Source of the DNA: Spirochaetota bacterium
GTDB taxonomy: Bacteria; Spirochaetota; Spirochaetia; Sphaerochaetales; Sphaerochaetaceae
Reading direction: 5' to 3'
DNA length: 40,542 nucleotides
NCBI GenBank assembly: GCA_918298275.1
Contig: CAKJZO010000062.1
Coordinates: forward strand, 1-40,542
The notes below the pieces were generated by a model that had not been told where the DNA came from, ran no database searches, and saw only the letters and a list, made by a program, of their open reading frames with translations. The position numbers and the translations under genes were made by a program. This document shows, in pieces, positions 2,184 to 15,704 of the stretch (the stretch's first letter is position 1; each line of letters opens with the position of its first letter).

Positions 2184-3344
2184 CTATTTCCTGATTCCCA
2201 TCTGTGCGGAGGCTTCCCCAAGTGCCTTGCAGAGAAGCTCGACTTCCTCTTCTGTATTAAGGTAGCTGAGGGAAATCCTGATGCTGGACATCCTGTCAGA
2301 ACTTGGGATGTTCATTGCAGCAAGCACGCTCTCGGCCTTGCCCCTCGAATTGGAGGAGCAGGCACTTCCCGATGAGAGGCAGAAGCCTTTGTCTGCCATT
2401 ACACGCAGAAAGACTTCCGAGGGAATCGGTTTTGCACAAATGTTTATGATATAAGGAGAAAACTCCTTTTCTGACTTATCTTGAGGTGAAATCAGCGTAT
2501 AACCTGACTCCAGAACTGTGTCTTGAATTTTGCGTCTGAAGGCCAAAACTTTGTCATAATTAGGCTTCAGGTTTTCCAGCGCGGGTTTCAGTTCTGCAGC
2601 CATTGCGCAGATGCCTGCAAGGTTCTCCGTTCCCGGTCTGAGGCCTTTTTCCTGACCGCCTCCGCGTGAGAGAGCGGCAATGGCCTTGTTTCGGCAGTAA
2701 AGGATTCCCACGCCCCTGGGACCGCAGAACTTGTGGGCGCTGAATGCAGCGCTGTCGAAGTCCTCTTCCTCTGCTTGGAAGGGAATCTTTCCCAAAGCCT
2801 GCACTGCATCGCAGTGGATATGGATTTTCCTGCCTGACTGCTTCTCGTAAGTTCGTACGACTTTCACCAGAGCCTTGGTATCAAGAATTGTTCCCGTTAC
2901 GTTGTTGACCTTCATGAAGGCGACCATGCGGACCTTGTCATTAAGAGCTTCCTTCAGCGCCATCGGATCAAGATAGCCGCCGGGGCAGCGAAGGGCAGTG
3001 AACTTCCAGCCATGGCTTTCCAGGGCCTTTTTCCACTCAAGGATTGCAGCATGCTCGATTCCGGTGGTTATTATCTCTCCGGGAGACGGGGAGCTGAGAA
3101 GCGATGAGAGCACTATAGAATCGGCCTCCGTACCGCCGCTTGTGAAGTATATGTACTCGGGCTTAGTCCCCAGCATCGATGCCACATCGCGACGCCGGCT
3201 TTCAAGACATTCCTTTGCCTGGATTCCAAGCGGATGCGTAGAGGAGGGGTTTCCGATATATCTCGTGGCTATGTCTGAATATACTTCCAGAGCCTTCTGC
3301 CCCATCGGGCTTGTGGCAGTCCAGTCGAAATAGTGCATGTCCAT
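2184..3344 (-). CDS. nifS: Cysteine desulfurase (NifS/IscS family)
   Basis: 386 aa, a PLP-dependent class V aminotransferase-fold enzyme that removes sulfur from cysteine as an enzyme-bound persulfide. The PLP lysine is in SAHKFCGPRGVG and the catalytic cysteine loop is SSGSACSS. The N-terminal YFDWTATSP and NPSSTHPLG segments are family hallmarks. It lies 8 bp from thiI and probably supplies its sulfur, like the NifZ-ThiI pair of Firmicutes (inference from context). No iscU-like scaffold gene is adjacent, which argues against a primary Fe-S role here. No clear Shine-Dalgarno is seen before the ATG at 3344; a second in-frame ATG follows two codons later. Confidence 0.93.
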   Translation of the reverse strand: MDMHYFDWTATSPMGQKALEVYSDIATRYIGNPSSTHPLGIQAKECLESRRRDVASMLGTKPEYIYFTSGGTEADSIVLSSLLSSPSPGEIITTGIEHAAILEWKKALESHGWKFTALRCPGGYLDPMALKEALNDKVRMVAFMKVNNVTGTILDTKALVKVVRTYEKQSGRKIHIHCDAVQALGKIPFQAEEEDFDSAAFSAHKFCGPRGVGILYCRNKAIAALSRGGGQEKGLRPGTENLAGICAMAAELKPALENLKPNYDKVLAFRRKIQDTVLESGYTLISPQDKSEKEFSPYIINICAKPIPSEVFLRVMADKGFCLSSGSACSSNSRGKAESVLAAMNIPSSDRMSSIRISLSYLNTEEEVELLCKALGEASAQMGIRK

Positions 3345-3376
3345 ATATTAGCAGATTGAAGTTAGTTGGTGAACAA

Positions 3377-4288
3377 TCAGATGTAGTACTCGTTCAGATA
3401 GATGTTGCACATCTGCTCCATCGAAAGTCCGCTCTTGTATTTCTTTTCCAGAACAGTCATTGCACGTCTGGGAAGAGTAAGCTCGCCGCCCTTGTCTCTA
3501 GGTCTGTTTTCCTGTGCCAAAGCTCTGATTGCTGATTCGATATCCGGATAATCGTAGGAATCCGAAGTCTTGTAGAATTCCTCGAAGCCGGCTTTCCTGT
3601 CCTTGTGGATGAGGTTGTGGAAGAACCTCAGGATCGTTGCCAGAATGAAGCAGATGACGAAGAATATCAAAGCGGCTACCGGAATCGAAACATAATCCAG
3701 AACCGTGCTGACCGAATAATGATCTCTCCATCCGCCGGCGTCCTGGCCGATGATGAACACCATGATGATGTAGACCAGTGCATAGGCTGTAGCCGGAGCC
3801 ATGGCAAGGAAGGTCTTCCAGAAACCGATCTTATGGTCGGAGTTGATGAAGAAGAACAGGGCAATCGACAAAACCGGGCAGATTGTATGCAGATGCAGGT
3901 TGTTTGACCAGAGCATGATCCTGTAGAAGCTCATAGCCGGAGAAAGGACCGTGAGTGCAACCATGAAGGTAACGGTTACACCTGTGGTTCCGATATACAT
4001 CAGGTCTACATACCAGCGGGGCAGATGGTAGTTGTGATTGCGCATGCCGTCCACGGCATAGGGGATGCACATTGCCGCCGAAACAGCCATCAGCATATTG
4101 GAGAGAATCGTAAACAGGTGGTAGGACTTCCAGCCTACCTCAGGGAAACCGTCATCCGTCGGTATAACAACCAGCTGCTGACAGACTCCTATGAAAACGA
4201 AAACGCAGATAAGACTGCAGACTATTATCGAAAGCACGCAACGGACTTTATTGACCTGAAGCGCATCGAGTTTCCTATCTTTTGACAT
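3377..4288 (-). CDS. Polytopic membrane protein, possibly Pr6Pr-like
   Basis: 303 aa with about six or seven hydrophobic segments. The first follows a basic N-terminus (MSKDRKLDALQ) and the last ends near residue 220. A cytoplasmic-looking tail then contains RDKGGELTLPRRAMTVLEKKYKSGLSMEQMCNIYL. The FTILSN segment, spaced His/Trp residues and overall pattern recall the Pr6Pr/FAR-17a-like membrane family, but I do not recognise the tail and assign no function. AGGAG precedes the ATG at the proper distance. It lies 26 bp downstream of the aroB-like gene and 32 bp upstream of nifS, so it is probably co-transcribed. A damaged paralogue in inverted orientation lies at 5448-6211. Confidence 0.8.
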   Translation of the reverse strand: MSKDRKLDALQVNKVRCVLSIIVCSLICVFVFIGVCQQLVVIPTDDGFPEVGWKSYHLFTILSNMLMAVSAAMCIPYAVDGMRNHNYHLPRWYVDLMYIGTTGVTVTFMVALTVLSPAMSFYRIMLWSNNLHLHTICPVLSIALFFFINSDHKIGFWKTFLAMAPATAYALVYIIMVFIIGQDAGGWRDHYSVSTVLDYVSIPVAALIFFVICFILATILRFFHNLIHKDRKAGFEEFYKTSDSYDYPDIESAIRALAQENRPRDKGGELTLPRRAMTVLEKKYKSGLSMEQMCNIYLNEYYI

Positions 4289-4314
4289 TTGCTGCTCCTG
4301 TTTATGAATCTTTG

Positions 4315-5358
4315 TCAGACGGAAGGAACCATCACGACGCTCTTGATGATTTCCTCGTCAATCGGGCGTATCTCATACTCGCCCTGATCCTTGAGAAGAA
4401 CGAAGCTGACAACTCCGTTCACTGTTTTCTTGTTCTTTGCAAGCTGGTTCCTGTAATCCATCCAGTCCCCGCGCTGAATGCGGTAATTGACATCAAAACC
4501 GTAGAATGCGAAGAGCTTTATGACTCCTGCGGCGAACTCCTTGGTGCAGATGCCCATTTCCCGGCTGGCTTCCATGGCCTTGCAGACTCCCCATGCAACG
4601 GCCTGGCCCGAGGACCACTGAAGGCGCGACATGCCTTCAAGCGCATAGGCGAAGGTGCTTCCAAGATTCAGGGCTACCCTGAGTCCGAGTCTTTCGTACG
4701 GGTCATTGTCGATATAGGATTTCTTTATCTGCAGAGAAATTGAAATAATCTGCTTCAGAGTTTCGGAATCCCTATCCAGGATTTTCTGCTTCTGGGTGGC
4801 TACTATGTTGAAAAGCTCATCATCCTTGGTCAGAAGACTGTGCTTGAGGACCTCGGCAAAGCCGTTCATATAGTCCTTCTGAGACAGGCTCCTCAGACAA
4901 TCCGTGCAGATGAGCACCTCATTGGCGGGGAAGAAGGTCCCGACTATATCCTTTGCGAAGCGGAAATTGATCGAGGTCTTGCCGCCCAGGGTGGAACTTG
5001 CCATGCTCACGAGGGTGGTGGGTATGAGGATGACCTTGCAGCCGCGCATGTAGATCGATGCCGCAAAGGCCGTGATGTCGCAGATCATCCCTCCGCCGAG
5101 GGCTATGAACGTGCAGTCACGTCCGAGGTTGTTGTCCATCGCCACGCTTATGATTCTCTCAAGGCATGCAAAGCTCTTTGAGCTCTCACCGGCTTCAAGG
5201 ATCACATTCGGTGAGGGAAGAGGTCTGACCATCTTGGCGGTGTTGGAATCGCATACCCAGAGTGTCTTGTTGCCGTATGTACCGACATGATAGGACAGGT
5301 CGGTAAAATCATCGGCCATGAACACCTTTGTTCCAAGACAGTTCAGAAACTCGCGCAT
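4315..5358 (-). CDS. 3-dehydroquinate synthase-like protein lacking zinc-ligand histidines
   Basis: 347 aa, homologous along its length to AroB, the NAD- and metal-dependent sugar-phosphate cyclase of the shikimate pathway. The NAD-binding loop GGGMICD (about residues 88-94) and the GGKTSIN motif (125-131) are retained. Metal ligand Glu169 (GFAEVLKH) is also present. The two zinc histidines are not: NLGHTFGHA is NLGSTFAYA (Ser234), and LHGEAVAIG is SSGQAVAWG (Ser250, Gln252). The usual VDSSVGGKT Asp is Ser121. A normal dehydroquinate synthase reaction is therefore unlikely. It may bind NAD and another ligand or carry out another reaction. First gene of a leftward series. Confidence 0.8.
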   Translation of the reverse strand: MREFLNCLGTKVFMADDFTDLSYHVGTYGNKTLWVCDSNTAKMVRPLPSPNVILEAGESSKSFACLERIISVAMDNNLGRDCTFIALGGGMICDITAFAASIYMRGCKVILIPTTLVSMASSTLGGKTSINFRFAKDIVGTFFPANEVLICTDCLRSLSQKDYMNGFAEVLKHSLLTKDDELFNIVATQKQKILDRDSETLKQIISISLQIKKSYIDNDPYERLGLRVALNLGSTFAYALEGMSRLQWSSGQAVAWGVCKAMEASREMGICTKEFAAGVIKLFAFYGFDVNYRIQRGDWMDYRNQLAKNKKTVNGVVSFVLLKDQGEYEIRPIDEEIIKSVVMVPSV

Positions 5359-5447: not shown

Positions 5448-6211
5448 ATGGCAAGGAAAAGGAAACTCGATGCATTGCAGTTCAACAGATTGCGCTGCCT
5501 TCTGGCGATAATCTCATGCACGCTTCTCTGTATCGTCGTTTTCCTCGGAGTCTGCGAGCAGCTGGTCTTCAATCCGGAATCGTATTTCCCTGAGCAGGGA
5601 TGGAAGTCCTACCACCTGTTCACCATTCTTTCCAACATGCTGATGGCTGTTTCCGCAGCCATGTGCATCCCGTATGCGGTGGACGGAATGCGCAATCATA
5701 ACCGTTGCTGGCAGTGCTGATATTCTTTCTGATCAATTCCGATCACCGCATCAGCTTCAGGAAAACCTTCCTGGCCATGGGGACTGTAACTGCATATGGT
5801 CTGGTCTACATCATCATGGTATTCCTCATCGGAGAGGAAGCAGGCGGGTGGAGAGACCATTATGAAGTCAGCACGGTGACGGATTATGTCCCGATTCCCG
5901 TGGCATTCCTTGTTCTGCTTCTGCTGGCTTTCGGTCTGGCGACAGCCCTGCGAGTTATCCATAACGCCATTCACAAGAAGAACAAGGCCGGACTTGAGGA
6001 ATACTATAGGACCACGGACGCTTTCTCATATCCTGACATCGAATCAGCCATCAGGGTGCTCGCAGACTTCAGCAGGCCCCTGGACAAGGGAGGCGAGCTG
6101 ACGCTTCCGCGACGTGCGATGACGATTCTGGAGAAGAAGTACAAGAGCGGACTCTCGATGGAAGAGATGTGCAATATTTATCTCAGGGAGTATTACTCGG
6201 AGACAACATAA
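5448..6211 (+). pseudogene. Frameshifted, internally deleted paralogue of the 3377-4288 membrane protein
   Basis: The 5' part from ATG 5448 (AAGGAG ribosome binding site) encodes MARKRKLDALQFN and runs parallel to the neighbour protein up to GMRNHN at about 5702. The reading frame then changes. The 3' part (continuous with the homologue from about 5704 to the stop at 6211) resumes at PLLAVLIFFLINSDH and ends with the same conserved tail. By comparison with the intact copy about 51 codons plus one base (about 154 bp) are missing at the junction, removing roughly two membrane segments and shifting the frame. The first part stops at 5718-5720. A fragment starting at the ATG at 5705 could still be translated. 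Inverted orientation relative to the intact copy. Confidence 0.82.
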
Positions 6212-6220
6212 TTAATAAGC

Positions 6221-7324
6221 TTAGTTGAGATTCGGATTCAGGATGTAATGAGTTCCTTTGCCGCCATCACCAAGTCTGATAAGAATGCCGTTTTCTGTTA
6301 ATGATGTAAGATCTCTGGTAGCAGTAGCGCTTTGGCATTTTGTCATTTTCATCCATTTCTCAGCTGTCAGTTTGCCGTAGAATGAGCCATCAGCAATTTT
6401 ATAGAGCATAAACAGTTGTCTTGAGTTATATTTGTTAGGATCAAGAGAACTCATGATAGAAGAAACCCTGAGTTTCTTATGGCATTGTTCGACTGCTTCT
6501 GCAAGACTAGTACAAACGGAATTGATATACCATGTAATCCATGGAGTGATATCAAGCGATGGTGATTTCTGGGAAATCTGAAGACTGTCGTAGTAGGGCT
6601 TGCGGTCTTTGATAATGGTTCCCGAAACGCTGTATGGCCTGAATCCTGTTCCCGCCTCGATTGAGAGAATATAGTCTGCAATTGCTCTTGATATTCTGCC
6701 GTTACCATCATCGAAAGGATGGATTGATACAAACCAGAAAGAGGCTAAGGCACTTTTGATCAGAAGATTTGTTTCCTCATCGGAATTAATGAATTCAATA
6801 AGTGATTCGACTTCTTTTCCAATTCTATCTGCGGGAATACCTTCATAAATAATTTCGGTATCACGGGGGGTATTATGGACGACATAAACCGGGCCTGTAC
6901 GGAAAGCCCCGACATGTTTTGGTGCAAAACCTTTCGCAACGCCATCAAAGAGTAAGCGATGCCAGTCAAAGAGACGATCCAAAGTAAGGGGAGTGTGGTT
7001 TCTGTTCGCATCCATTATCAGTTTTGAAACGCTTTCCGCATTTCTGTCATATTTTGCCTTGATTGACATATCAACATCCAGTTGCTTGATTATGGATGAA
7101 TAAACACTGTCATATTGAAGGTCAACACCTTCGATTGCAGAACTTGAAACTGTTTCTGTGGAGAGGCTTTCTGCTATCATCATCTGTCTGGCACGTTCAG
7201 AAAGCATGGCAAATGCCCCATCAGCGATACCTTTCTGGTACATGTATCTGTTGTAGGCCGATTCCACTTGGGTTCTGTCATAATTGAAATGAGGCCAGTT
7301 CTCATTCTGCCAAATATATGCCAT
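6221..7324 (-). CDS. Fic-domain protein with N-terminal inhibitory motif and C-terminal winged-helix
   Basis: About 367 aa from the ATG at 7324, chosen over the upstream ATG at 7351 because GAGGGG stands 7 nt before it. The Fic core HPFDDGNGRISRA (from about His202) is the complete active-site motif of AMP-transferring Fic enzymes. An inhibitory-helix motif, SSSAIEG, lies near residue 65, marking the class in which the inhibitor helix is N-terminal to the Fic fold. The N-terminus (AYIWQNENWPHFNYD) resembles the DUF4172 subfamily. The C-terminus (LTAEKWMKMTKCQSATATRDLTSLTENGILIRLG) reads as a winged helix-turn-helix, so it may bind DNA. The target is unknown. Own promoter with operator-like repeats upstream. 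Confidence 0.88.
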   Translation of the reverse strand: MAYIWQNENWPHFNYDRTQVESAYNRYMYQKGIADGAFAMLSERARQMMIAESLSTETVSSSAIEGVDLQYDSVYSSIIKQLDVDMSIKAKYDRNAESVSKLIMDANRNHTPLTLDRLFDWHRLLFDGVAKGFAPKHVGAFRTGPVYVVHNTPRDTEIIYEGIPADRIGKEVESLIEFINSDEETNLLIKSALASFWFVSIHPFDDGNGRISRAIADYILSIEAGTGFRPYSVSGTIIKDRKPYYDSLQISQKSPSLDITPWITWYINSVCTSLAEAVEQCHKKLRVSSIMSSLDPNKYNSRQLFMLYKIADGSFYGKLTAEKWMKMTKCQSATATRDLTSLTENGILIRLGDGGKGTHYILNPNLN

Positions 7325-7334
7325 TGTTATTCCC

Positions 7335-7437
7335 CTCAAATATGATTCCATTAGGTGTTCTATGCTAAATATAAATCAAATTTGATTTGAATGACAAGCT
7401 TTTTCTGTGATTCCAATCAAAAATGATTGATTAATCA
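7335..7437. repeat. Three ATCA-N4-TGAT palindromes upstream of fic
   Basis: Copies at 7335-7346 (one mismatch in the outer base), 7375-7386 (within the 16-bp perfect palindrome AAATCAAATTTGATTT, 7373-7388) and 7416-7427 (arms extended to CAATCA/TGATTG). Their centres are 40 and 41 bp apart, close to four helical turns. A further palindrome TGATTAATCA lies at 7428-7437. The middle copy fits inside the spacer of the predicted fic promoter. This looks like an operator array; the Fic protein's own winged helix is a candidate ligand (inference). Confidence 0.6.
7368..7397 (-). promoter_or_regulatory. Predicted fic promoter
   Basis: On the minus strand TTGTCA (7397-7392) and TATATT (7373-7368) are separated by 18 bp. 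The spacer holds the perfect palindrome centred at 7380/7381, so a protein bound there would block RNA polymerase. The transcript would start about 7361 and carry the GAGGGG ribosome binding site. Confidence 0.55.
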
Positions 7438-7566
7438 GAGGTAATCTTGATTGAGTTTTAGTGTAGCTCATCCGGACAGATATCTTGGCCATCAGGCCAT
7501 GTAACGGGTTTCTTAGAAGAAAAGAATTGAAAAGTGTTCCAGAAATCCGAACGATGATATGTAATT

Positions 7567-8799
7567 ATGCCTCTTGTTAATGCAAAACTGGAGGACAAAT
7601 CCTTGAAAGATAAATTGATGATAAAGTTATCTAAGGAAGACATTAATTCAGATTTTCTGGAAGAGGAGAAGAGGCTTGATTATGAACTGGCCTTAATCAG
7701 AAAAGCAGGTTTGGAGCAATACATTCTTGCCTTTGAAAATGTCTTATCCATGGCAAAGAGAAACAGTATTCCTATGTTCGTTGATTCCTTGGATGGAGAA
7801 GGTTCTCTTGTCTTATATAGTCTTGGAATCACACATAGGAATCCCCTTCTGTACAATCTGGGATTTGCCTCTTTTCTCAGCATCGAACGCTTAAGAATAC
7901 CATGGTTCAGTATCATCTGTCGTAAAGAAGGTACCCATTCCATCTATAGCGAGATGGTGAAACAATTCGGAGAAGACAAAGTCGGGTTGATTCCTAATGG
8001 TGTAGGTCTTCTCCTGAACAAGACGGGTCTTAGAGAACCTGTTCCGTCTGTGATTGATGATTATACCTTGGAACGGCATTTCCTCGTCCAGCCTAAGGCA
8101 TTGGAACAGAACGGGATAATTCCAGTCACTTTGGATTATGAACAAACTCTTGAGTATTTGGTTAGTCTTGAGAATCTGATAAAGCAAAGCACACCGAGTT
8201 TCAGTCTCGATTCAATTCCGGATGATGATTCTGAGACATTCGAAATGCTGTCAAAAGGGGAGTCCGAAGGGATTCCGCTCCTCAATGACAATTGGATTCG
8301 GAAGTGTCTGAGAATCTTAGGACCAAGTAATATCGATGAACTTGATGCGCTGATGTCTCTCTATCACAATGGTCCGACTGATCTGATACCGATGTACATG
8401 GATGCAAAGAGGGGAATGCTGCCGGAAAACTATCAGGATCTACAGGAAAATGAGCAGCTTAAAAGGACTTATGGGGTAATCGTATACAAAGAGCAGATTA
8501 TTGATGTCCTAACCCAGATAGCCGCGCTATCCGAAGCAGAAGCGCTCTATTACTGCCGTGCTTTATTCAGAGGTGATAGAGATACGATTGATCGGTACGA
8601 AAAGGAGTTCAAAGACAGAATGGCCAGATTCAACAAGAACAGTCAGTATGCAGAAAAGCTTATCGATATGATCAGTCAGTTCTCTTCTGAGTTTTATAAG
8701 AGAAAAATCGGGTTCTGGCACACGGTTCTTACATACAGGCTGGCCTTCATCAAATGCCATTATCCTGTTGAGTTTAGCAATGTGATGAATCACATGTAA
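7567..8799 (+). CDS. DNA polymerase III alpha (DnaE)-like protein, catalytically inactive and reduced
   Basis: 410 aa against about 1,150 for DnaE. Residues about 35-118 follow the DnaE palm (RLDYELALIRKAGLEQYILAFENVL, GEGSLVLYSLGIT, NPLLYNLGFASFLSIERL), but the catalytic PDIDIDF strand reads PWFSIIC (112-118). The third catalytic Asp region (VKFDFLGL) is also not conserved. Finger-domain landmarks remain: PDDDSETFEMLSKGESEGIPLL, NGPTDLIPMYMDAKRG, YGVIVYKEQ and IKCHYPVEFSNVM. The PHP domain, most of the thumb and everything after the fingers are absent. It cannot be a polymerase by the known mechanism. The ATG at 7567 lacks a ribosome binding site; TTG at 7609 has GGAGG about 8 nt upstream and may be the real start. 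Its stop overlaps the next ATG by 1 nt. Confidence 0.78.
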   Translation: MPLVNAKLEDKSLKDKLMIKLSKEDINSDFLEEEKRLDYELALIRKAGLEQYILAFENVLSMAKRNSIPMFVDSLDGEGSLVLYSLGITHRNPLLYNLGFASFLSIERLRIPWFSIICRKEGTHSIYSEMVKQFGEDKVGLIPNGVGLLLNKTGLREPVPSVIDDYTLERHFLVQPKALEQNGIIPVTLDYEQTLEYLVSLENLIKQSTPSFSLDSIPDDDSETFEMLSKGESEGIPLLNDNWIRKCLRILGPSNIDELDALMSLYHNGPTDLIPMYMDAKRGMLPENYQDLQENEQLKRTYGVIVYKEQIIDVLTQIAALSEAEALYYCRALFRGDRDTIDRYEKEFKDRMARFNKNSQYAEKLIDMISQFSSEFYKRKIGFWHTVLTYRLAFIKCHYPVEFSNVMNHM

Positions 8800-9503
8800 T
8801 GGGAGGATTAGGAATAAACAGCATGAAAGACATTATTGATGCAGAGAAGATCAGAGAGTTCCTGGCTGAGTTTTCATATCCTTTATACTTTTTGGATTTC
8901 GAGACCATATATCCTGCGGTTCCGTTGTTTGAAGGTGTCAGGCCATACCAGCAGATTCCGTTCATGTACTCGCTGCATTGGATAGAAGAAGAGGGTGGTG
9001 AGCTGCACCATGCAGTATTCTTCTCTTATCCCGGACGTGATCCGAGGAGATACATAGCGGAAGAGCTGTGCGCTGATATCCCAAAAGGTGTCTGTACTGT
9101 TGCCTACAACATGTGCTTTGAGAAAGCAAGAATCAGAGAGCTTGCGGAACTGTTTCCGGACCTTGCTGATCATCTGATGGATATTCATGACAACATGAAG
9201 GATCTCATGGTGCCGTTCCGAAGGAAATGGTATTACACCGATGCCATGGAGGGTTCATATTCCCTGAAAGTCGTCCTTCCGGCCCTCTATCCCGATGACC
9301 CAGAGCTTGATTACTCCCGGCTTGACGGAATCCACAATGGTGGTGATGCCTCGGCGACCTATCTAGCAATGTGGCAGGATCCTGATGACCAGACACCGGA
9401 GAAATGCAGACAATTGAGCGAATACTGCGGGCTCGATACCTTTGCGCTGGTCAAGCTGTGGCAGAAGTTGAAAGTAAAGTCTTTGGTTAATAAGAAGCTA
9501 TGA
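8799..9503 (+). CDS. DUF2779-type DEDD exonuclease-like protein
   Basis: 234 aa matching the C-terminal DUF2779 domain, an RNase H-fold 3'-5' exonuclease-like module. Putative DEDD residues are visible: D33/E35 in LYFLDFETI, the exo II segment AYNMCFEKARI (about 103-112), D135 near HDNMKDL, and D213 in EYCGLDTFALV. GSYSLKVVLPAL is a further family signature. Many family members carry an N-terminal Cas4-like nuclease domain; here only the exonuclease part exists. ATG 8799 overlaps the stop codon of the DnaE-like gene by 1 nt. ATG 8823 is an alternative start. The coupling suggests the two proteins work together, mirroring the polymerase alpha/epsilon partnership (inference). Confidence 0.78.
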   Translation: MGGLGINSMKDIIDAEKIREFLAEFSYPLYFLDFETIYPAVPLFEGVRPYQQIPFMYSLHWIEEEGGELHHAVFFSYPGRDPRRYIAEELCADIPKGVCTVAYNMCFEKARIRELAELFPDLADHLMDIHDNMKDLMVPFRRKWYYTDAMEGSYSLKVVLPALYPDDPELDYSRLDGIHNGGDASATYLAMWQDPDDQTPEKCRQLSEYCGLDTFALVKLWQKLKVKSLVNKKL

Positions 9504-9526
9504 TAAAATGAATACGGAGGAGAAAA

Positions 9527-10399
9527 ATGAAGTATAGGATTCACGATGAGGTATGTAGCAGATGTGGCTCTGAAAATATCATACTTGATATGCTTTCTTA
9601 TAAATGCATGAACTGTGGATACAGATGGTTTGAATCCGGGTATCAACCTACTGCATATGATATGGCAGAAGTTAATACAGATGCAAGAAATGACAGGGAT
9701 AAAAAACTATTCAAGAATCATATCCGCAGAAAGGATGTCATGGGCATATTCAGCCCTTCTGAACGCTTCTTCAAGAATTTGGAATTCGAATTCCTTGACC
9801 GCACTCCGTTGACCGACTATCGTTATGAACTCGGGAACCTTCTGTTAGATGGAGCTGGATTCAACGAGCTCAAGAAGTACAAGAGACCCGACGAATGCAG
9901 GGAATCTGATTTCAATTCTTTTATCAGAGATTATCTCAGCAGTAGGGATGAACTGTCGTTTGTATCTACAGTTGAAGACTGGAGCAGGTATCTTAATGTT
10001 TCCAGCAACGAGATGGCAGATTTCTTTGACCCTGGATCACATGTGGATATTTCCAGTTATCTTAACCCTGACACAGAATTATTTTTTGCGTTTCAGATAG
10101 TGTTTTCAGGAAAGGTTCAATCATTCTTGGAGGAACTGGATGAAGGGCATCTGGATATGTTCATTGAAGAAGTTGATCCGGACTTATGCTTTCTCGAATA
10201 CTTTGATGGAAATGATGCTGCCGTCTCTTATCTCAACTATTATTTCCCTGCAGAAATAAACGTAATCAAAAGATTCATTCACGCCGTAGAGGACAAGCAG
10301 CAAGAATTATTCGAGAGAGCGATAAGCGAGCATCTGTCCATCATCGATACCATGATGCTGTTTTTGGATTATGCATTTGAGGGGTATAATGGATACTAA
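9527..10399 (+). CDS. Orphan protein with N-terminal zinc ribbon
   Basis: 290 aa. Residues 9-31 form a zinc ribbon (CSRCG ... CMNCG), followed by RWFESGYQP. The rest is acidic and helix-rich, with many Asp/Glu/Phe/Tyr residues, no membrane segment and no catalytic motif I recognise. A strong ribosome binding site (GGAGG) stands in front of the ATG. It follows the DUF2779 gene by 23 bp and its stop meets the next reading frame, so it probably belongs to the same transcript. A nucleic-acid or protein-binding adaptor would fit a zinc ribbon, but that is a guess. Confidence 0.72.
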   Translation: MKYRIHDEVCSRCGSENIILDMLSYKCMNCGYRWFESGYQPTAYDMAEVNTDARNDRDKKLFKNHIRRKDVMGIFSPSERFFKNLEFEFLDRTPLTDYRYELGNLLLDGAGFNELKKYKRPDECRESDFNSFIRDYLSSRDELSFVSTVEDWSRYLNVSSNEMADFFDPGSHVDISSYLNPDTELFFAFQIVFSGKVQSFLEELDEGHLDMFIEEVDPDLCFLEYFDGNDAAVSYLNYYFPAEINVIKRFIHAVEDKQQELFERAISEHLSIIDTMMLFLDYAFEGYNGY

Positions 10400-10428
10400 T
10401 GAAAGTGTTGAGAAGGAGGTTTCTGGTT

Positions 10429-11073
10429 GTGAATCTGGAAAAAATCAAAAAAGAGTTTATGGATCAAGGATGGAGTTATGAAATTAACCATGATGAGTGT
10501 GGGCGTATTCATTGCTTCAGAAAGGGAGAGTTCGGGGTGATGTTTGTATCGAATTCAATAGATGGGCTAGTTTTTTCTGGTGCAAACCCCAGTGAAGCTG
10601 AGAAGGGAAGGTATATTCCGGATGATAATATGCCGGTACCAATTGGTGATCTGATGGCATTTGATTTTTCAAGGGAAAAACTACTGGAAGTCAGATTATA
10701 TGATGGCACGTTGCTTAGATATCACTTTTTTGACAATGAATCTTTTATCATGGATGATATCCAACACAGAGTTTTGCCTCCCGTAGAAAAACCATTGGAA
10801 GAATACTATGCTGATGATAGGCCTCATAAAATGATAGTTGAGGTTTCAATGGTTATGAAAACATATGTCTCTGTTTTCGCTCATGATGAAAAAGAAGCGA
10901 TTAGCCTTGTAGATAATCTGGATGGTATAGGAGAAGAAACTTACGACAGAGAGATAAGAGGGAAAATGGAAACAGATGATTGGGATCATTTTCGAGTTGT
11001 AAAAGAGTATAAAAATGTCAAGTATGATGAACCAGTTATTTCAGAGTACAATGTAGGCTCTAGATATTTATGA
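10429..11073 (+). CDS. Unrecognised cytoplasmic protein
   Basis: About 214 aa from the GTG at 10429, chosen because AAGGAGG at 10413-10419 lies 9 nt before it. An in-frame ATG at 10399 overlapping the previous stop would add ten basic residues. The N-terminal half (IHCFRKGEFGVMFVSNSIDGLVFSG) looks beta-rich. The C-terminal part contains MIVEVSMVMKTYVSVFAHDEKEAISLVDNL and ends in hydrophilic sequence. No signal peptide or membrane helix is seen and no family is recognised. It is the last gene of a rightward group that starts with the DnaE-like gene. Confidence 0.65.
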   Translation: MNLEKIKKEFMDQGWSYEINHDECGRIHCFRKGEFGVMFVSNSIDGLVFSGANPSEAEKGRYIPDDNMPVPIGDLMAFDFSREKLLEVRLYDGTLLRYHFFDNESFIMDDIQHRVLPPVEKPLEEYYADDRPHKMIVEVSMVMKTYVSVFAHDEKEAISLVDNLDGIGEETYDREIRGKMETDDWDHFRVVKEYKNVKYDEPVISEYNVGSRYL

Positions 11074-11152
11074 CTACTTTGATTTAGTACAGTTTATAAT
11101 CGTGGATGAATAGATGATAGTTATAACGAAACAATAATGAAAAGGAAAATGT

Positions 11153-12268
11153 ATGGATATAGAAAAAAGCATTTTTAATCGTATGACTAATGAGAATGAG
11201 GATTCCACTACAGAACTCTTGGCTAATACTCTGAAAAGCTATTTGTTTATAAGATCAGATATTATTAAATATTTATGTGGTGATTATCAAAGATTAATTG
11301 GATATGACTTTACAGATGCTGAGATTATAACACAGAGAGTAGTAGAAGGAATTGGAAAACCGGATTTAAAAATCAAGACTAAAGACGTTTACGTAATAGT
11401 GGAGAACAAAATACGGATAGGAACTGCTCCTACCGAGCATGAACTAGAGGATTATATTCAAGAAATAAAAGCATTCTGTTCGCTTTCTTTACGAAGAGAA
11501 GAGCATTCAGAAGGTAGATTGTATGGAAAGCTTGTATTCCTTATCCCTCAAGAATATGGGTTTGCCGACTTGCTTAAAAGAGTTCAAGACGTTTATACCT
11601 CTCTTGTGTCAATAGTTTACTGGGAGAATTTTATTAGTTGGATAAAAAAGCGGGAATACAGTTCTGCATCTCCTGTTTTGGCTGAGGTGATTTCTTATTT
11701 TGAATCGGTTGTCGACATTAATCATAAAAATGAAGACACTCGTGAATTACGAGCATATGAGGTGCTTATGCTGAACAACGTAGAAAAGGTTTTTGATGCA
11801 ATATCTCTTTGTAATCAACTGTTAAAAAGAATAGCAGCAATAGAAACTAGGCTAATTGAAAATCTAAACGGTGAATTCAAATCAAAAGGGACTCCTATAG
11901 AGTTATCTGCATCCAATTATTATTTTAGCTACTCCGATAATAACAAAGTGCCTCAAATCAATGATGGCGGCATAGGAAAAGCATTGAACATAACACACAG
12001 AGGAAAAAGATACGATATGGTATGTTATTGTGGTTTTTCTGATCTTAATGATAGGAAAAAAACTAAAGACTATGGATTTAGTGTTGCATTTAAAAAAACC
12101 ATATCATCTGGATTAGAAGCATACGCTACTGAAACTTTTGATAACTGGACGTTTGTTCCATTGAATCCAGAAATACTTATCGATCCAGATACTTCATTAT
12201 TTGAGAAAGAAGTGACAGAAATAGTGAGAAACGTGCTAGAGGCCCCAGATTTTGTCATCAACAAATAA
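11153..12268 (+). CDS. PD-(D/E)XK nuclease superfamily protein
   Basis: 371 aa. The N-terminal third carries a PD-(D/E)XK core: GKPDLKI with Asp71, then VYVIVENKI with Glu84 and Lys86. An acidic helix (NENEDSTTELLANTL) precedes it, as in the PDDEXK_4-like group found in defence and restriction loci. The remainder (YSDNNKVPQINDGGIGKALNITHRGKRYDMVCYCGF) has no motif I recognise and may be a sensor or target-recognition part. The gene is visibly richer in A/T than the flanking core genes, which suggests horizontal acquisition. AAGGA precedes the ATG. It stands alone, with 79 bp before it and a terminator-like hairpin after it. A TATAAT at 11095-11100 may be its -10 element. Confidence 0.7.
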   Translation: MDIEKSIFNRMTNENEDSTTELLANTLKSYLFIRSDIIKYLCGDYQRLIGYDFTDAEIITQRVVEGIGKPDLKIKTKDVYVIVENKIRIGTAPTEHELEDYIQEIKAFCSLSLRREEHSEGRLYGKLVFLIPQEYGFADLLKRVQDVYTSLVSIVYWENFISWIKKREYSSASPVLAEVISYFESVVDINHKNEDTRELRAYEVLMLNNVEKVFDAISLCNQLLKRIAAIETRLIENLNGEFKSKGTPIELSASNYYFSYSDNNKVPQINDGGIGKALNITHRGKRYDMVCYCGFSDLNDRKKTKDYGFSVAFKKTISSGLEAYATETFDNWTFVPLNPEILIDPDTSLFEKEVTEIVRNVLEAPDFVINK

Positions 12269-12330
12269 ATGACTGCTTTGTTTCTTTAGATCCAGCAGGC
12301 AAGACTTGTTTCATAAAACGAGAGTTAGCA

Positions 12331-12367
12331 AACTGGGTTGCTTGTTGACTCTAGTCAACCAGTTTTT
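12331..12367 (+). terminator. Hairpin with T-tract after the PD-(D/E)XK gene
   Basis: AACTGGGTTG (12331-12340) can pair with CAACCAGTT (12356-12364) with one bulged G, followed by TTTTT. A competing perfect palindrome, GTTGACT-CT-AGTCAAC, occupies 12344-12359, so the two structures share the 3' CAAC. Likely the terminator of the upstream gene. The rest of 12269-12434 holds nothing else I can support. Confidence 0.5.
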
Positions 12368-12434
12368 CGGTATTCTCATAATCAATCCCGAAGTGCCTCA
12401 TGAGGAAGGGAATGGGGAGTTCGGGATTGTTTGC

Positions 12435-13508
12435 TTATTCCAACGCATGCCTGGCTTCTCCCTTTGTAATCTTCTCTGTATTGCGCTTACTGTGCTCCTG
12501 TTCGTACTGAGCCACTAAGGCGGACAGCTCGCTTCGTATCTCCTCGATCAAATCCTCCGGCCAAAGGCATTTGGCCTGGCATCCTAAGCTGAGTATCCAC
12601 TTCTTACAGGCATAGCGGCTGCGAGTCTGAACGGTCATGACAATGGAACCATCTTCATTCTCTGTGATTTGGGCATTCTTGGAACGAGCAGCTTCTTTCT
12701 CAAAGATGGCCTGATCCGGGTCAATCCATACCTTGACTGTTATGGGCTCGTCATCAGTGACTATGCCGAATGGATCGATAATCTGGGAGAGGTCTTTGAA
12801 TTCATCCGGTGTGACTGCATCTTCAAAGATTTCTATGTTCCTGATTCGTGAGAAGGCATGGACCACTGTGTGATTGAAGTAGGGATTATAGGAGAAGAGG
12901 TAGAGGATATCATTCTGAGAGAAGATGCCTATTGGATTGATTGTGTACTTTTTCTCCTCTGACCATGGACTTTTATATGTGATCCAGACGGATTTGCTTT
13001 GATCTATAGCTTTCAGGATGTCAGGAATGAATTGCCGTCCTTCTCCGCTGGTCTGCATGTCCGGGCTGTAGCTGACCATGGGAATTATACCCTTCGAGGC
13101 AAATCGGCTTAAGGAAAGGTGTTCCTTGAGATTGTCTATCATGCCGCCATAAAGACCTGTTGATTCAGCCATGTCCATTAGTATGGTCAGAATCATGCGG
13201 TCATCGTTTGAAAGGGAACTGATCCGGGAGAGCTCGCGCTCGGCTTTTCTTATGTTATATGTGCTTAGTCTTAGTTTGAGAGGACTGTTGTCCGCTGGGC
13301 GGTCAAACTCGTTGCTTTCAAGGCACGCAACACTGGCAAGCGCCTGGAATAGGCGACAAGCTTGGGTTTTCCCGATTCCCAAGGCATCCTGAACCTCTTT
13401 TCTGCTGAACCATCTGTCAGGATGGTTAACGAAAAAACTGATTGCCTGCTGATACAGTTTGCCGGATACGCTGTTTTTCAGATCATCTGACACATCATTG
13501 TTTCTCAT
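12435..13508 (-). CDS. WYL-domain transcriptional regulator
   Basis: 357 aa from the ATG at 13508, chosen because GGAGAG lies 6-7 nt upstream; a longer frame from 13583 would run through the operator-like repeat. An N-terminal helix-turn-helix (WFSRKEVQDALGIGKTQACRLFQALASV) is followed by a WYL-type beta domain (SVWITYKSPWSEEKKYTINPIGIFSQNDILYLFSYN, then HAFSRIRNIEI) and a WCX-like C-terminus. WYL proteins bind nucleic acid or nucleotide ligands and often repress phage-defence operons (BrxR/CapW type). The gene is divergent from a three-gene cassette. A 23-bp inverted repeat lies between them and again inside the cassette, so it is a good candidate for their regulator. Confidence 0.82.
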   Translation of the reverse strand: MRNNDVSDDLKNSVSGKLYQQAISFFVNHPDRWFSRKEVQDALGIGKTQACRLFQALASVACLESNEFDRPADNSPLKLRLSTYNIRKAERELSRISSLSNDDRMILTILMDMAESTGLYGGMIDNLKEHLSLSRFASKGIIPMVSYSPDMQTSGEGRQFIPDILKAIDQSKSVWITYKSPWSEEKKYTINPIGIFSQNDILYLFSYNPYFNHTVVHAFSRIRNIEIFEDAVTPDEFKDLSQIIDPFGIVTDDEPITVKVWIDPDQAIFEKEAARSKNAQITENEDGSIVMTVQTRSRYACKKWILSLGCQAKCLWPEDLIEEIRSELSALVAQYEQEHSKRNTEKITKGEARHALE

Positions 13509-13572
13509 TTTTATCTCTCCAAGTATCAAGTTTACCAGTGAATCTCTGCTGATAAAAGTACAATAATGCAAA

Positions 13573-13595
13573 AGCGTTCTCATTTTGCGGACGCT
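13573..13595. promoter_or_regulatory. Operator-like inverted repeat, copy A
   Basis: Arms AGCGTTCTC (13573-13581) and GCGGACGCT (13587-13595) are separated by 5 bp and extended outward by AA/TT. It lies 64 bp upstream of the WYL start codon and 68 bp upstream of the divergent gene at 13664. The same 23-bp layout recurs at 14344-14366. Confidence 0.6.
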
Positions 13596-13663: not shown

Positions 13664-14299
13664 ATGGAAGAACTGATGAGAGACATTATTAAGAGAATTA
13701 GGTCAAATGTGTTCAGAGACTATTATCTTGAACACTTGCCTGAATGGAATCTCTGGCAGATCACAGATGTGATCCTGAGTCAGGTCAGTTCTCGTCATGC
13801 CGCATCCTCTTTCTTTAAGAGACTTGTTGAGTACCTGCCGAATCCTGATGAAAAGGCTGTAAGTCGTATGCTCTCGGTTGATCTTAGGAGATATGATGAT
13901 ATACGTCCCAGCACTGAAGCATTTGTTAAGAACACATTTCCAAATCTCAAATGGCATAGGTATTTTTCTCATTCGTATTTGGGCGAACCAAAGTTGTTCA
14001 AAGAATTCGAGGTTGTGAAGTATTGGATTCCATGGGAATATGGAAATGGATATCAGATAGGTTTTCTCGCTAGCCCTGGATATGATTGGGATACCGAGTC
14101 TGCTACTCTCTATGATATTTACAATCTCAGGAGAATGGACTTGCCTAGTGAGGATATTACCTGGGTTTACAAGGCAGACATAGTCAAGCCGTTCTTTGTC
14201 GACAAATACAACATCCGGTGTCTCGATTCCAAGTGTGCTCGAAATCTCAGGATAATCAAGGAAAGAATAGCTGAAGCAGGGAAGTGGCCTATATATTGA
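13664..14299 (+). CDS. Unrecognised protein, first gene of the WYL-associated cassette
   Basis: 211 aa, soluble, rich in aromatic residues (FRDYYLEHLPEWNLWQITDVIL; HRYFSHSYLGEPKLFKEFEVVKYWIPWEYGNGYQIGFLASPGYDWDTES). It has a basic C-terminal part (CLDSKCARNLRIIKERIAEAGKWPIY). No family, catalytic motif, signal peptide or membrane helix is recognised. CGGAGG lies 7 nt before the ATG. It is divergent from the WYL regulator across 155 bp and followed 104 bp later by the Cys-rich gene, with a second copy of the operator-like repeat in between. A job shared with the FtsK-type motor is inferred from position only. Confidence 0.7.
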   Translation: MEELMRDIIKRIRSNVFRDYYLEHLPEWNLWQITDVILSQVSSRHAASSFFKRLVEYLPNPDEKAVSRMLSVDLRRYDDIRPSTEAFVKNTFPNLKWHRYFSHSYLGEPKLFKEFEVVKYWIPWEYGNGYQIGFLASPGYDWDTESATLYDIYNLRRMDLPSEDITWVYKADIVKPFFVDKYNIRCLDSKCARNLRIIKERIAEAGKWPIY

Positions 14300-14343
14300 A
14301 CAGTTACCTTTGAGTTCCGAGAAAAATGTGCAGAAGTGTTTCA

Positions 14344-14366
14344 AGTGTTCGCTGAATGCGGACGCT
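14344..14366. promoter_or_regulatory. Operator-like inverted repeat, copy B, in front of the Cys-rich gene
   Basis: Arms AGTGTTCGC (14344-14352) and GCGGACGCT (14358-14366) are separated by 5 bp. They match copy A at 13573-13595 in 16 of 18 arm positions and in spacing. A TATAAT at 14368-14373 starts two bases after the repeat, so the repeat covers the -35 region and spacer of a likely promoter. A bound repressor would block it. Confidence 0.6.
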
Positions 14367-14403: not shown

Positions 14404-14646
14404 ATGGCAAACTATTGTAAAGGATGCAGATTCTTTAATGATGAAGGCAGATGTGAGGCAAGAAATTTCCAGCCAAGCGCACAATCTACTGCATGCTATT
14501 CGTATGCCGCATACAGTACCAGGAATCCGGATGACTTGAAATACTGCAAGGATTGCAGATTCTATACTGGTTCGAGATGTAGTTTGCGCAAGTTCTCACC
14601 AACCTCTGAAACATACAAATGCTATGACGGTTCAATTTGTAAATGA
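14404..14646 (+). CDS. Small protein with two tandem CxxC motifs
   Basis: 80 aa made of two homologous units: YCKGCRFFNDEGRC...AC at residues 4-32 and YCKDCRFYTGSRC...C from about residue 47. Each unit has four cysteines in a C-x2-C-x7/8-C-x13/14-C pattern, as in small zinc-binding modules. AGGAGG stands before the ATG. The last codons overlap the start of the FtsK-like gene (ATGA, 14643-14646), so the two are translationally coupled and probably form a functional pair. Metal binding is inferred from the cysteines. No specific function is known to me. Confidence 0.78.
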   Translation: MANYCKGCRFFNDEGRCEARNFQPSAQSTACYSYAAYSTRNPDDLKYCKDCRFYTGSRCSLRKFSPTSETYKCYDGSICK

Positions 14647-15704
14647 AGCATCATGATTCTAGCATCAGTAAGATAATTGTAGATACTTTCAATAATTATG
14701 GAATTAAGTCAGAAATTATTGGTTGCACAAATGGTGTAGCATATACGCTGTATGAGGTTAAGGTTGCTCCTGGAACAAGAATGCTTTCGGTTGCATCTCG
14801 CGAGTATGATTTGGCCGTAGCTTTATCAGAAGAGAGAGTCCGGATTATTGCTCCGATTCCGGGGAAAACCACCATCGGAGTAGAAGTTCGTGCACCAATC
14901 AGAATACGCATCCCATTTGATCCATTTCCCCCAGTTCTTGAAAACAGCTTCGGAGTGATTCCGTTTGCGCTCGGAATGGATGTATACGGCAACAGGCATG
15001 TTACAGATCTTACAATGTGTCCTCATCTTCTGATTGCAGGAAACCGGGGTACAGGGAAGACAACTTTCATCAATTGTCTGATTCACTCCATTGTCCTGAC
15101 TAGAACCCCATCTGAGGTGAAATTGTCTCTGATAGATACAAAGGACATCTTGTACTCGGAAAGAATGGAAATACCAAATCTGCTGGTTCCGATAATAACA
15201 GAACCAAAAAACGCACTTGACTTCTTTGATTATCTGTTCGAGGAAATGGAGCGGAGATTGGTATTTCTTAAGGAGAGAGGCGTCCGAAATATATCTGAGT
15301 ATAACGAAGGCATTTCAGAGGATGATCGTTCAAATCAGAAAATGCCATACATTGTTGTAATTGTTGATGAGTATTCGGATTTGATGCTTGAAGATGGCAG
15401 ATGGTTTGAGTCGATGATAATGCAGATTGCTCCTAAAGGTAAGACTGTCGGAATTCATCTTGTAATGTCCACAAACAGGTGCACATCTGATGTCATAACA
15501 GGAGTAATAAAAACTCATTTCCCGTCGCAGATTGCATTCTCTGTATCCAGTGGTTTAAACAGCAGAATAATAATCGATCAGCTTGGAGCAGAAAGATTGC
15601 TTGGATGGGGAGACTTTCTGTATTGTGCAAATGATTCTCAGGTTCCTCTTAGGCTTCAGGGGATAGACATGATATATAAAGGCCATTGTTTCTCATACAA
15701 ATGA
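14643..15704 (+). CDS. Stand-alone FtsK/SpoIIIE-type DNA translocase motor
   Basis: 353 aa. Residues 1-85 match the alpha part of the FtsK motor (FNNYGIKSEIIGCTNGVAYTLYEVKVAPGTRM, APIPGKTTIGVEV). Residues 110-340 are the RecA-like beta part with Walker A GNRGTGKT (133-140), LIDTKDILYS, MERRLVFLKERGVRNISEYN and Walker B IVVIVDEYSDLM (Asp242, Glu243). Membrane helices, linker and the DNA-reading gamma domain of chromosomal FtsK are missing. It is therefore a soluble hexameric-motor paralogue, likely an accessory or defence-type ATPase rather than the divisome protein. It starts inside the end of the Cys-rich gene without its own ribosome binding site and converges on hrpA. Confidence 0.85.
   Translation: MKHHDSSISKIIVDTFNNYGIKSEIIGCTNGVAYTLYEVKVAPGTRMLSVASREYDLAVALSEERVRIIAPIPGKTTIGVEVRAPIRIRIPFDPFPPVLENSFGVIPFALGMDVYGNRHVTDLTMCPHLLIAGNRGTGKTTFINCLIHSIVLTRTPSEVKLSLIDTKDILYSERMEIPNLLVPIITEPKNALDFFDYLFEEMERRLVFLKERGVRNISEYNEGISEDDRSNQKMPYIVVIVDEYSDLMLEDGRWFESMIMQIAPKGKTVGIHLVMSTNRCTSDVITGVIKTHFPSQIAFSVSSGLNSRIIIDQLGAERLLGWGDFLYCANDSQVPLRLQGIDMIYKGHCFSYK

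Follow-up and report, generated by a model that had tools for sequence, protein, structure and literature searches.

A predicted inactive, truncated DnaE-like protein shares an operator with WYL regulator and FtsK motor genes in a spirochaete gene island

Results

Genes and features of the island

The window (the whole 40,542-nt stretch of DNA that was analysed, from a rumen-type spirochaete) carries a gene island with an open frame related to DnaE, the alpha subunit of DNA polymerase III. The protein is predicted to be catalytically inactive and is referred to below as dead DnaE. The features of the island are as follows, with the evidence in brackets.

7532–7555, + strand: operator AAGTGTTC-N9-GAACGAT before the dead DnaE gene, with an AT-rich -10-like stretch after it (PWM, genome pattern search)
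7590–7605, + strand: Shine-Dalgarno sequence GGAGG (7590–7594) and probable start codon TTG 7603 of dead DnaE (sequence)
7603–8799, + strand: dead DnaE-like protein, palm and fingers only (profile, alignment, selection, predicted fold)
7777–7794, + strand: residues 71–76, FVDSLD, replacing the conserved G(P/A)GRGS loop (alignment)
7909–7917, + strand: residues 115–117 (S-I-I) at the place of catalytic D401 and D403, E. coli numbering (alignment)
8128–8130, + strand: residue 188 (T) at the place of catalytic D555, E. coli numbering (alignment)
8149–8628, + strand: DnaE finger domain PF17657, the best conserved part of dead DnaE (Pfam)
8823–9503, + strand: standalone DUF2779 protein, predicted DEDD 3′-5′ exonuclease, without the usual Cas4-like N-terminal half (PF11074, motifs, ortholog starts)
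9527–10399, + strand: 290-aa protein whose N-terminal cysteines are zinc-ribbon-like, limited to this genome and G134 (Pfam scan, comparison)
10399–11073, + strand: 224-aa protein of the same gene run (frame list, Pfam scan)
11153–12268, + strand: 371-aa PD-(D/E)XK-like nuclease candidate (weak PF14281; PADLOC PDC-S26, E 3e-5)
12435–13583, - strand: WYL/WCX-domain transcription regulator (PF13280, PF25583; PADLOC WYL, E 1e-22)
13572–13595, no strand assigned: operator between the divergent WYL and 211-aa genes (PWM, genome pattern search)
13664–14299, + strand: 211-aa protein, 90% identical in G134 (comparison)
14343–14366, + strand: operator before the 80-aa and FtsK genes (PWM, genome pattern search)
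14643–15704, + strand: FtsK/SpoIIIE motor-only protein, last island gene in all three genomes (PF01580, E 4e-41)

The three genomes are that of the window and those of two sister organisms, G134 (the rumen MAG RUG12683, locus L033) and G133 (locus L066). The equivalent islands occupy different chromosomal sites, and in each the FtsK gene comes last and is followed by core genes. PADLOC detected no complete defence system, the only matches being to WYL, SoFic-like, FtsK-motor and, weakly, PDC-S26 proteins. Just to the left of the island, and without the operator, lies the gene of a Fic/DOC protein (DUF4172 plus Fic, SoFic-like; 6221–7351). Further left, a membrane-protein gene is present in two copies (5448–6211 and 3377–4288), of which the + strand copy appears to be split by a frameshift (5448–5720, 5705–6211).

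Dead DnaE is a C-family fold reduced to palm and fingers

The frame 7567–8799 is open throughout, as an earlier sequence-only reading of this DNA had stated, and encodes 410 aa from ATG 7567 or 398 aa from TTG 7603. That reading had taken the ATG as the start. However, ATG 7567 has no Shine-Dalgarno sequence; GGAGG sits eight bases upstream of TTG 7603, which also comes after a promoter block (7530–7594) conserved in L033. The position of these signals makes TTG 7603 the likely start.

The DnaE-like landmarks of palm and fingers, previously recognised by eye, are borne out by family profiles (PF17657, E 2e-28, and PF07733, E 1e-15, in Pfam; TIGR00594, E 8e-57) and by a match of Taq DnaE at E 1e-40. 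The host genome has a separate normal DnaE, to which dead DnaE is 34% identical. Structure prediction, proposed earlier as a way of deciding whether a DnaE fold exists at all, returned a C-family fold: the AlphaFold model, built from 52 sequences, reaches pLDDT 85.9 and pTM 0.86, compares with M. tuberculosis DnaE1 at VIA Z 37.5 (3.0 Å, 403 residues) and with the Taq alpha-DNA complex at a Foldseek TMq of 0.84. The Pol III alpha match spans the whole model, which consists of palm and fingers only. The earlier claim that PHP, thumb and all later domains are missing was likewise confirmed. There is no PF02811 (PHP) match in Pfam and PHP is absent from the alignment too; the thumb corresponds to a gap opposite residues 432–521 of host DnaE; the protein ends just past the fingers, at a point that aligns with residue ~790 of the 1160 in host DnaE; and neither (HhH)2 nor clamp-binding, OB or CTD regions are present in that alignment.

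The catalytic Asp triad is replaced by Ser115, Ile117 and Thr188 in the window protein and by Gly, Ile and Tyr in L033. Indeed, the strand reads PWFSIIC where PDFDIDF is expected and Thr188 stands for D555, so that both active-site losses reported by the sequence-only reading hold. The substitutions extend beyond the triad. At positions defined as conserved against 50 viral DnaE sequences, 20 of the 27 polar ones (conservation of at least 90%) are changed, versus 17 of 41 structural ones, and the window protein and L033 have the same new residue at 31 of 36 changed positions. Hydrophobic columns are largely kept (92/125). As for the conserved basic columns, 8 of 22 are still basic and 14 are lost. 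Model and alignment together indicate that the fold is kept while the catalytic and nucleotide-binding chemistry is lost. Since most of the conserved cleft residues are gone, it is doubtful that dead DnaE binds DNA through the usual cleft. Its calculated charge is -13 as compared to -1 for host DnaE, an acidity which is also found in non-dead forms.

The gene is under purifying selection

The ratio of synonymous to non-synonymous change, named earlier as a check for decay, is not that of a pseudogene. Comparison of the window gene with L033 gives dN/dS 0.235, with 91 non-synonymous changes observed versus 128 (sd 5.5) expected; none of 2000 neutral simulations yielded a number as low. Under the same neutral simulation 5.4 stops are expected, and 0 are observed. 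A pseudogene was rejected on this ratio, the lack of stops and the dedicated promoter, and the codon comparison indicates that dead DnaE is a working gene held by purifying selection. Synonymous divergence between the two copies is uneven, about 0.2 in codons 113–312 and 0.4–0.67 at the ends, a pattern which suggests recombination between islands.

An operator confined to the island

A palindromic operator, AAGYGTTC-N9-GRACGCT, followed by a -10-like stretch, occurs at three sites of the island (7532, 13572 and 14343). Using a leave-one-locus-out PWM, trained on other loci only, we obtained scores of 33, 38 and 33 for these sites; the second-strand reading of the 13572 palindrome was also found. 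Essentially nothing else was detected in the 40.5 kb, where the shuffled maximum was 14, and 174 kb of control loci contained no match. Genome-wide counts were made by pattern search. The whole 1.83 Mb genome has three sites, all in the island, and in G134 and G133 the pattern is limited to the equivalent islands, the reversed-pattern control giving 0 in each of the three genomes. Operator-like matches in two other genomes (G135 and G129) fall inside coding sequence and were discarded.

In G134, the operator precedes the dead DnaE-AAA unit, the unit formed by a 276-aa gene, DUF2779 and a Zn-ribbon gene, the WYL gene, the 211-aa gene and the FtsK gene; the G133 sites lie before the FtsK gene, an AAA gene and a second, intact DnaE. 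The island thus combines a WYL regulator gene with a shared inverted-repeat operator confined to it, and from this position the WYL protein is most probably the (putative) operator-binding protein. Regulators of the WYL type are sensors of ssDNA which govern damage and defence genes (PMC11804915, PMC9122588, PMC9122601).

The intact DnaE of G133 (contig C44, 8755–12276 of L066) is a second, full-length copy with intact motifs under the island operator. Its companions in that island encode ClpP, two AAA proteins, a metallo-beta-lactamase-fold protein, a CbxX-like AAA protein and DUF2779.

The DUF2779 exonuclease

DUF2779 proteins usually carry a Cas4-like DUF83 half. The PF11074 match directly downstream of dead DnaE (E 4e-45, Pfam) and the conserved acidic motifs DFET, YN..FE, DL and YC..DT (DxE, E, D, D) support the earlier assignment of a DUF2779 protein with visible DEDD residues. 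The AlphaFold model, derived from two sequences only, is of low confidence (pLDDT 41) and was set aside. PF11074 is clade F.17 of the RNase H-like superfamily, a presumed 3′-5′ exonuclease (PMC3985635).

The sequence-only reading had described a 1-nt overlap between the stop of dead DnaE and the ATG of this gene. This was not upheld. Close orthologs all start at the Met encoded at 8823 (MKDII, MPDII or MNDII), which leaves a 23-nt gap after dead DnaE. Because the ortholog starts map to 8823, this is most likely the true start, and the overlap would be an annotation artefact of taking the longest frame. On the same starts, translational coupling through the overlap was rejected.

Relatives and further inactive copies

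The only close relative of dead DnaE is L033 in G134 (77%). No further one was found among 139 family genomes or in a 393-genome phylum sample, and in the genome contig collection only RUG12683, the same locus as L033, matches; this particular protein is thus known from two genomes. A phage origin was also considered and rejected: viral contigs contained no relative of dead DnaE, of the L033 N-terminal extension or of DUF2779, and no operator match. Dead DnaE and the intact G133 DnaE are 30–31% identical and are not grouped by the tree, in which dead DnaE sits on a long branch and was left out of the argument on origin.

By blastn, window positions 7530–7594 align with the L033 promoter region and 7666–8815 with L033 coding sequence that runs through the start of the AAA gene. 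This pattern suggests that the window copy arose from the G134 form by deletion, with the loss of about 160 N-terminal aa of dead DnaE, the AAA ATPase and the 276-aa gene; part of what the locus does may have gone with them. The N-terminal extension of the G134 protein (about 170 aa, L033 9509–10080) has no PHROG relative and is absent from the window copy. The 276-aa protein of L033, which by eye resembles a uracil-glycosylase, gave no family or PDB match and that assignment was rejected.

Other inactive, truncated DnaE paralogs, whose sequence stops just past the fingers, occur in the family. They are L123 3021–5315 (764 aa, PYLEICC), L136 7260–9521 (753 aa), L099 (760+ aa, PGIDVAF and KMYF, cut by the contig end) and the finger-only L096 (229 aa). 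In the tree, L123a and L099 group with short DnaE copies that are active, and not with the window protein, which implies that DnaE inactivation occurred more than once. New here are the operator shared by the dead DnaE, WYL and FtsK genes and the recurrence of inactive DnaE paralogs.

L123 (G045:C46:14000-30000) has two short DnaE paralogs, 3021–5315 and 9798–12212, of which one is inactive while the other has intact motifs. Both have ankyrin-repeat and NUDIX genes nearby, and between them are a WYL gene and a gene for the C-terminal domain of DnaB only (further coordinates at this locus: 7571–8902, 12209–13507). The NUDIX/100-aa/ankyrin/DnaE array of L123 is repeated in L118, and L099 and L096 have part of it. 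The inactive DnaE of L136 (G039:C44:32000-48000) is intact as a gene, comprises PHP, palm and fingers, and stands by itself, with a transporter operon on one side and the gene of a 553-aa protein on the other. Finally, a plasmid- or phage-like region (L069, G126:C23) contains a second DnaE of 1038 aa (8201–11317), whose neighbours are, by eye, two sigma-factor-like genes, a RecD-like helicase and a TOPRIM primase-like gene.

Discussion

Proposed role of dead DnaE

The best explanation as a whole, which we regard as evenly poised between right and wrong, is that dead DnaE is a pseudo-polymerase effector of an operator-sharing, defence-like island, acting as a non-catalytic decoy or inhibitor. 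A Pol III alpha reduced to palm and fingers, and retained by purifying selection, would be one effector gene of a movable island whose shared operator is most probably bound by the WYL regulator. DNA damage or phage attack would switch the island on; the induced protein would bind one of the partners of the replicative polymerase, or else a factor by which a phage attacks that polymerase, and would thereby work as a replisome decoy or inhibitor. Meanwhile, the co-regulated nucleases, ATPase and FtsK motor would act on DNA.

Alternatively, dead DnaE could be part of an integrative element, a DnaE once borne by the element, as in G133, and reduced to a structural or dominant-negative blocker of host or rival replication. 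This agrees with the equivalent island of G133, where the same operator stands before a second, intact DnaE, and with other elements of the family that encode a DnaE, DnaB-C and sigma factors of their own. Nevertheless, we consider this reading unlikely, as integrase, relaxase, primase and virion genes are not seen in the window island and dead DnaE does not group with the G133 copy in the tree.

Rather improbable, in our view, is the model of the sequence-only reading, a two-protein nuclease in which the DUF2779 exonuclease relies on dead DnaE as its subunit for DNA binding or targeting. DnaE usually works with a DEDD proofreader, and the E. coli Pol III domain which binds that exonuclease is PHP. 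The two genes adjoin on one strand in the window, both belong to one co-regulated island in G134, and a DnaE-family gene lies upstream of a standalone DUF2779 in 3/3 islands of the genus (g1). However, PHP and most conserved basic residues are lost from dead DnaE, and the 1-nt overlap is probably an artefact. The adjacency is not kept in G134, the only other genome with both genes, where the AAA and 276-aa genes separate them and they belong to different transcription units; in G133, DUF2779 overlaps the AAA ATPase gene, dead DnaE is absent and the DnaE present is the intact one. Moreover, no DnaE was found near DUF2779 in 20 other Spirochaetota neighbourhoods. The neighbourhood search suggested earlier thus revealed no conserved pair or operon, and no pair elsewhere in the genomes searched. 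What survives of the original idea is a dead, selected polymerase in an island with nucleases; the dedicated pair is not supported. DUF2779 is co-regulated with dead DnaE and may pair with it, although such pairing is not favoured, and dead DnaE is probably a replisome decoy or inhibitor instead of a DNA-targeting subunit.

We think it very unlikely that dead DnaE is a translesion or repair accessory made upon DNA damage, which would correspond within the C family to ImuB, an inactive protein of the Y family. WYL regulators do answer DNA damage, and inactive polymerase homologs with a structural role are described (ImuB, iPolY) in a 2026 survey (PMC12926913); but the clamp-binding domain is lost with the C-terminal half, and no imuA, recA-like or polY gene was recognised among the island genes scanned. 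Least probable is a decaying, functionless fragment of a former DnaE gene: dead DnaE is inactive, truncated and rare, and a frankly broken DnaE exists in G069 (L118, PHP and finger pieces in separate frames), but the window gene is under purifying selection without stops, has a conserved dedicated operator and Shine-Dalgarno sequence, conserves the replacement residues themselves and has a complete fold predicted with confidence.

To return to the decoy or inhibitor reading, we tentatively extend it, at somewhat greater risk, to a class: gut and rumen spirochaetes may repeatedly have made dead, C-terminally truncated C-family polymerases into replisome decoys or inhibitors in inducible islands. 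The class would comprise the window/L033 protein and those of L123, L136, L099 and L096, and may have been overlooked because surveys discard sequences without an active site. A dead DnaE that is selected and separately regulated would mean that the fold of a replicative polymerase had been put to a new, non-catalytic use, perhaps as a bait or a brake in conflicts that involve phages or mobile elements. Simple genetics could test the idea, given the operator and the recurring inactive paralogs.

Comparison with known systems

The Y and X families are known to include inactive polymerase homologs; we found none of the C family in the open literature searched. The Asp triad has been called absolutely conserved in the C family, in a survey which removed fragments without an intact active site (PMC3919608), and the 2026 survey, as far as it was available to us, treats inactive Y-family members and, for the C family, PHP inactivation only (PMC12926913). 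Dead DnaE resembles DnaE1/Pol III alpha in the fold of palm and fingers (22–26% identity in structural alignment), but is devoid of the catalytic Asp residues, GRGS loop, PHP, thumb, little finger, clamp-binding, OB and CTD regions. Like ImuB and iPolY, it is a polymerase homolog retained without catalysis; those are Y-family proteins, whereas dead DnaE has the C-family fold. Furthermore, ImuB has retained its clamp and RecA-like contacts and is a partner of DnaE2, two features not seen here. The window DUF2779 shares the acidic motifs of its family, although the island copies are devoid of the Cas4-like DUF83 half. Finally, although the window island has no complete known defence effector and its operator and gene set are genus-specific, it is similar to the WYL-regulated defence islands of BrxR and CapW, and to the WYL damage regulators PafBC and DriD, in combining a WYL gene with inverted-repeat operators before island genes, the WYL gene itself among them.
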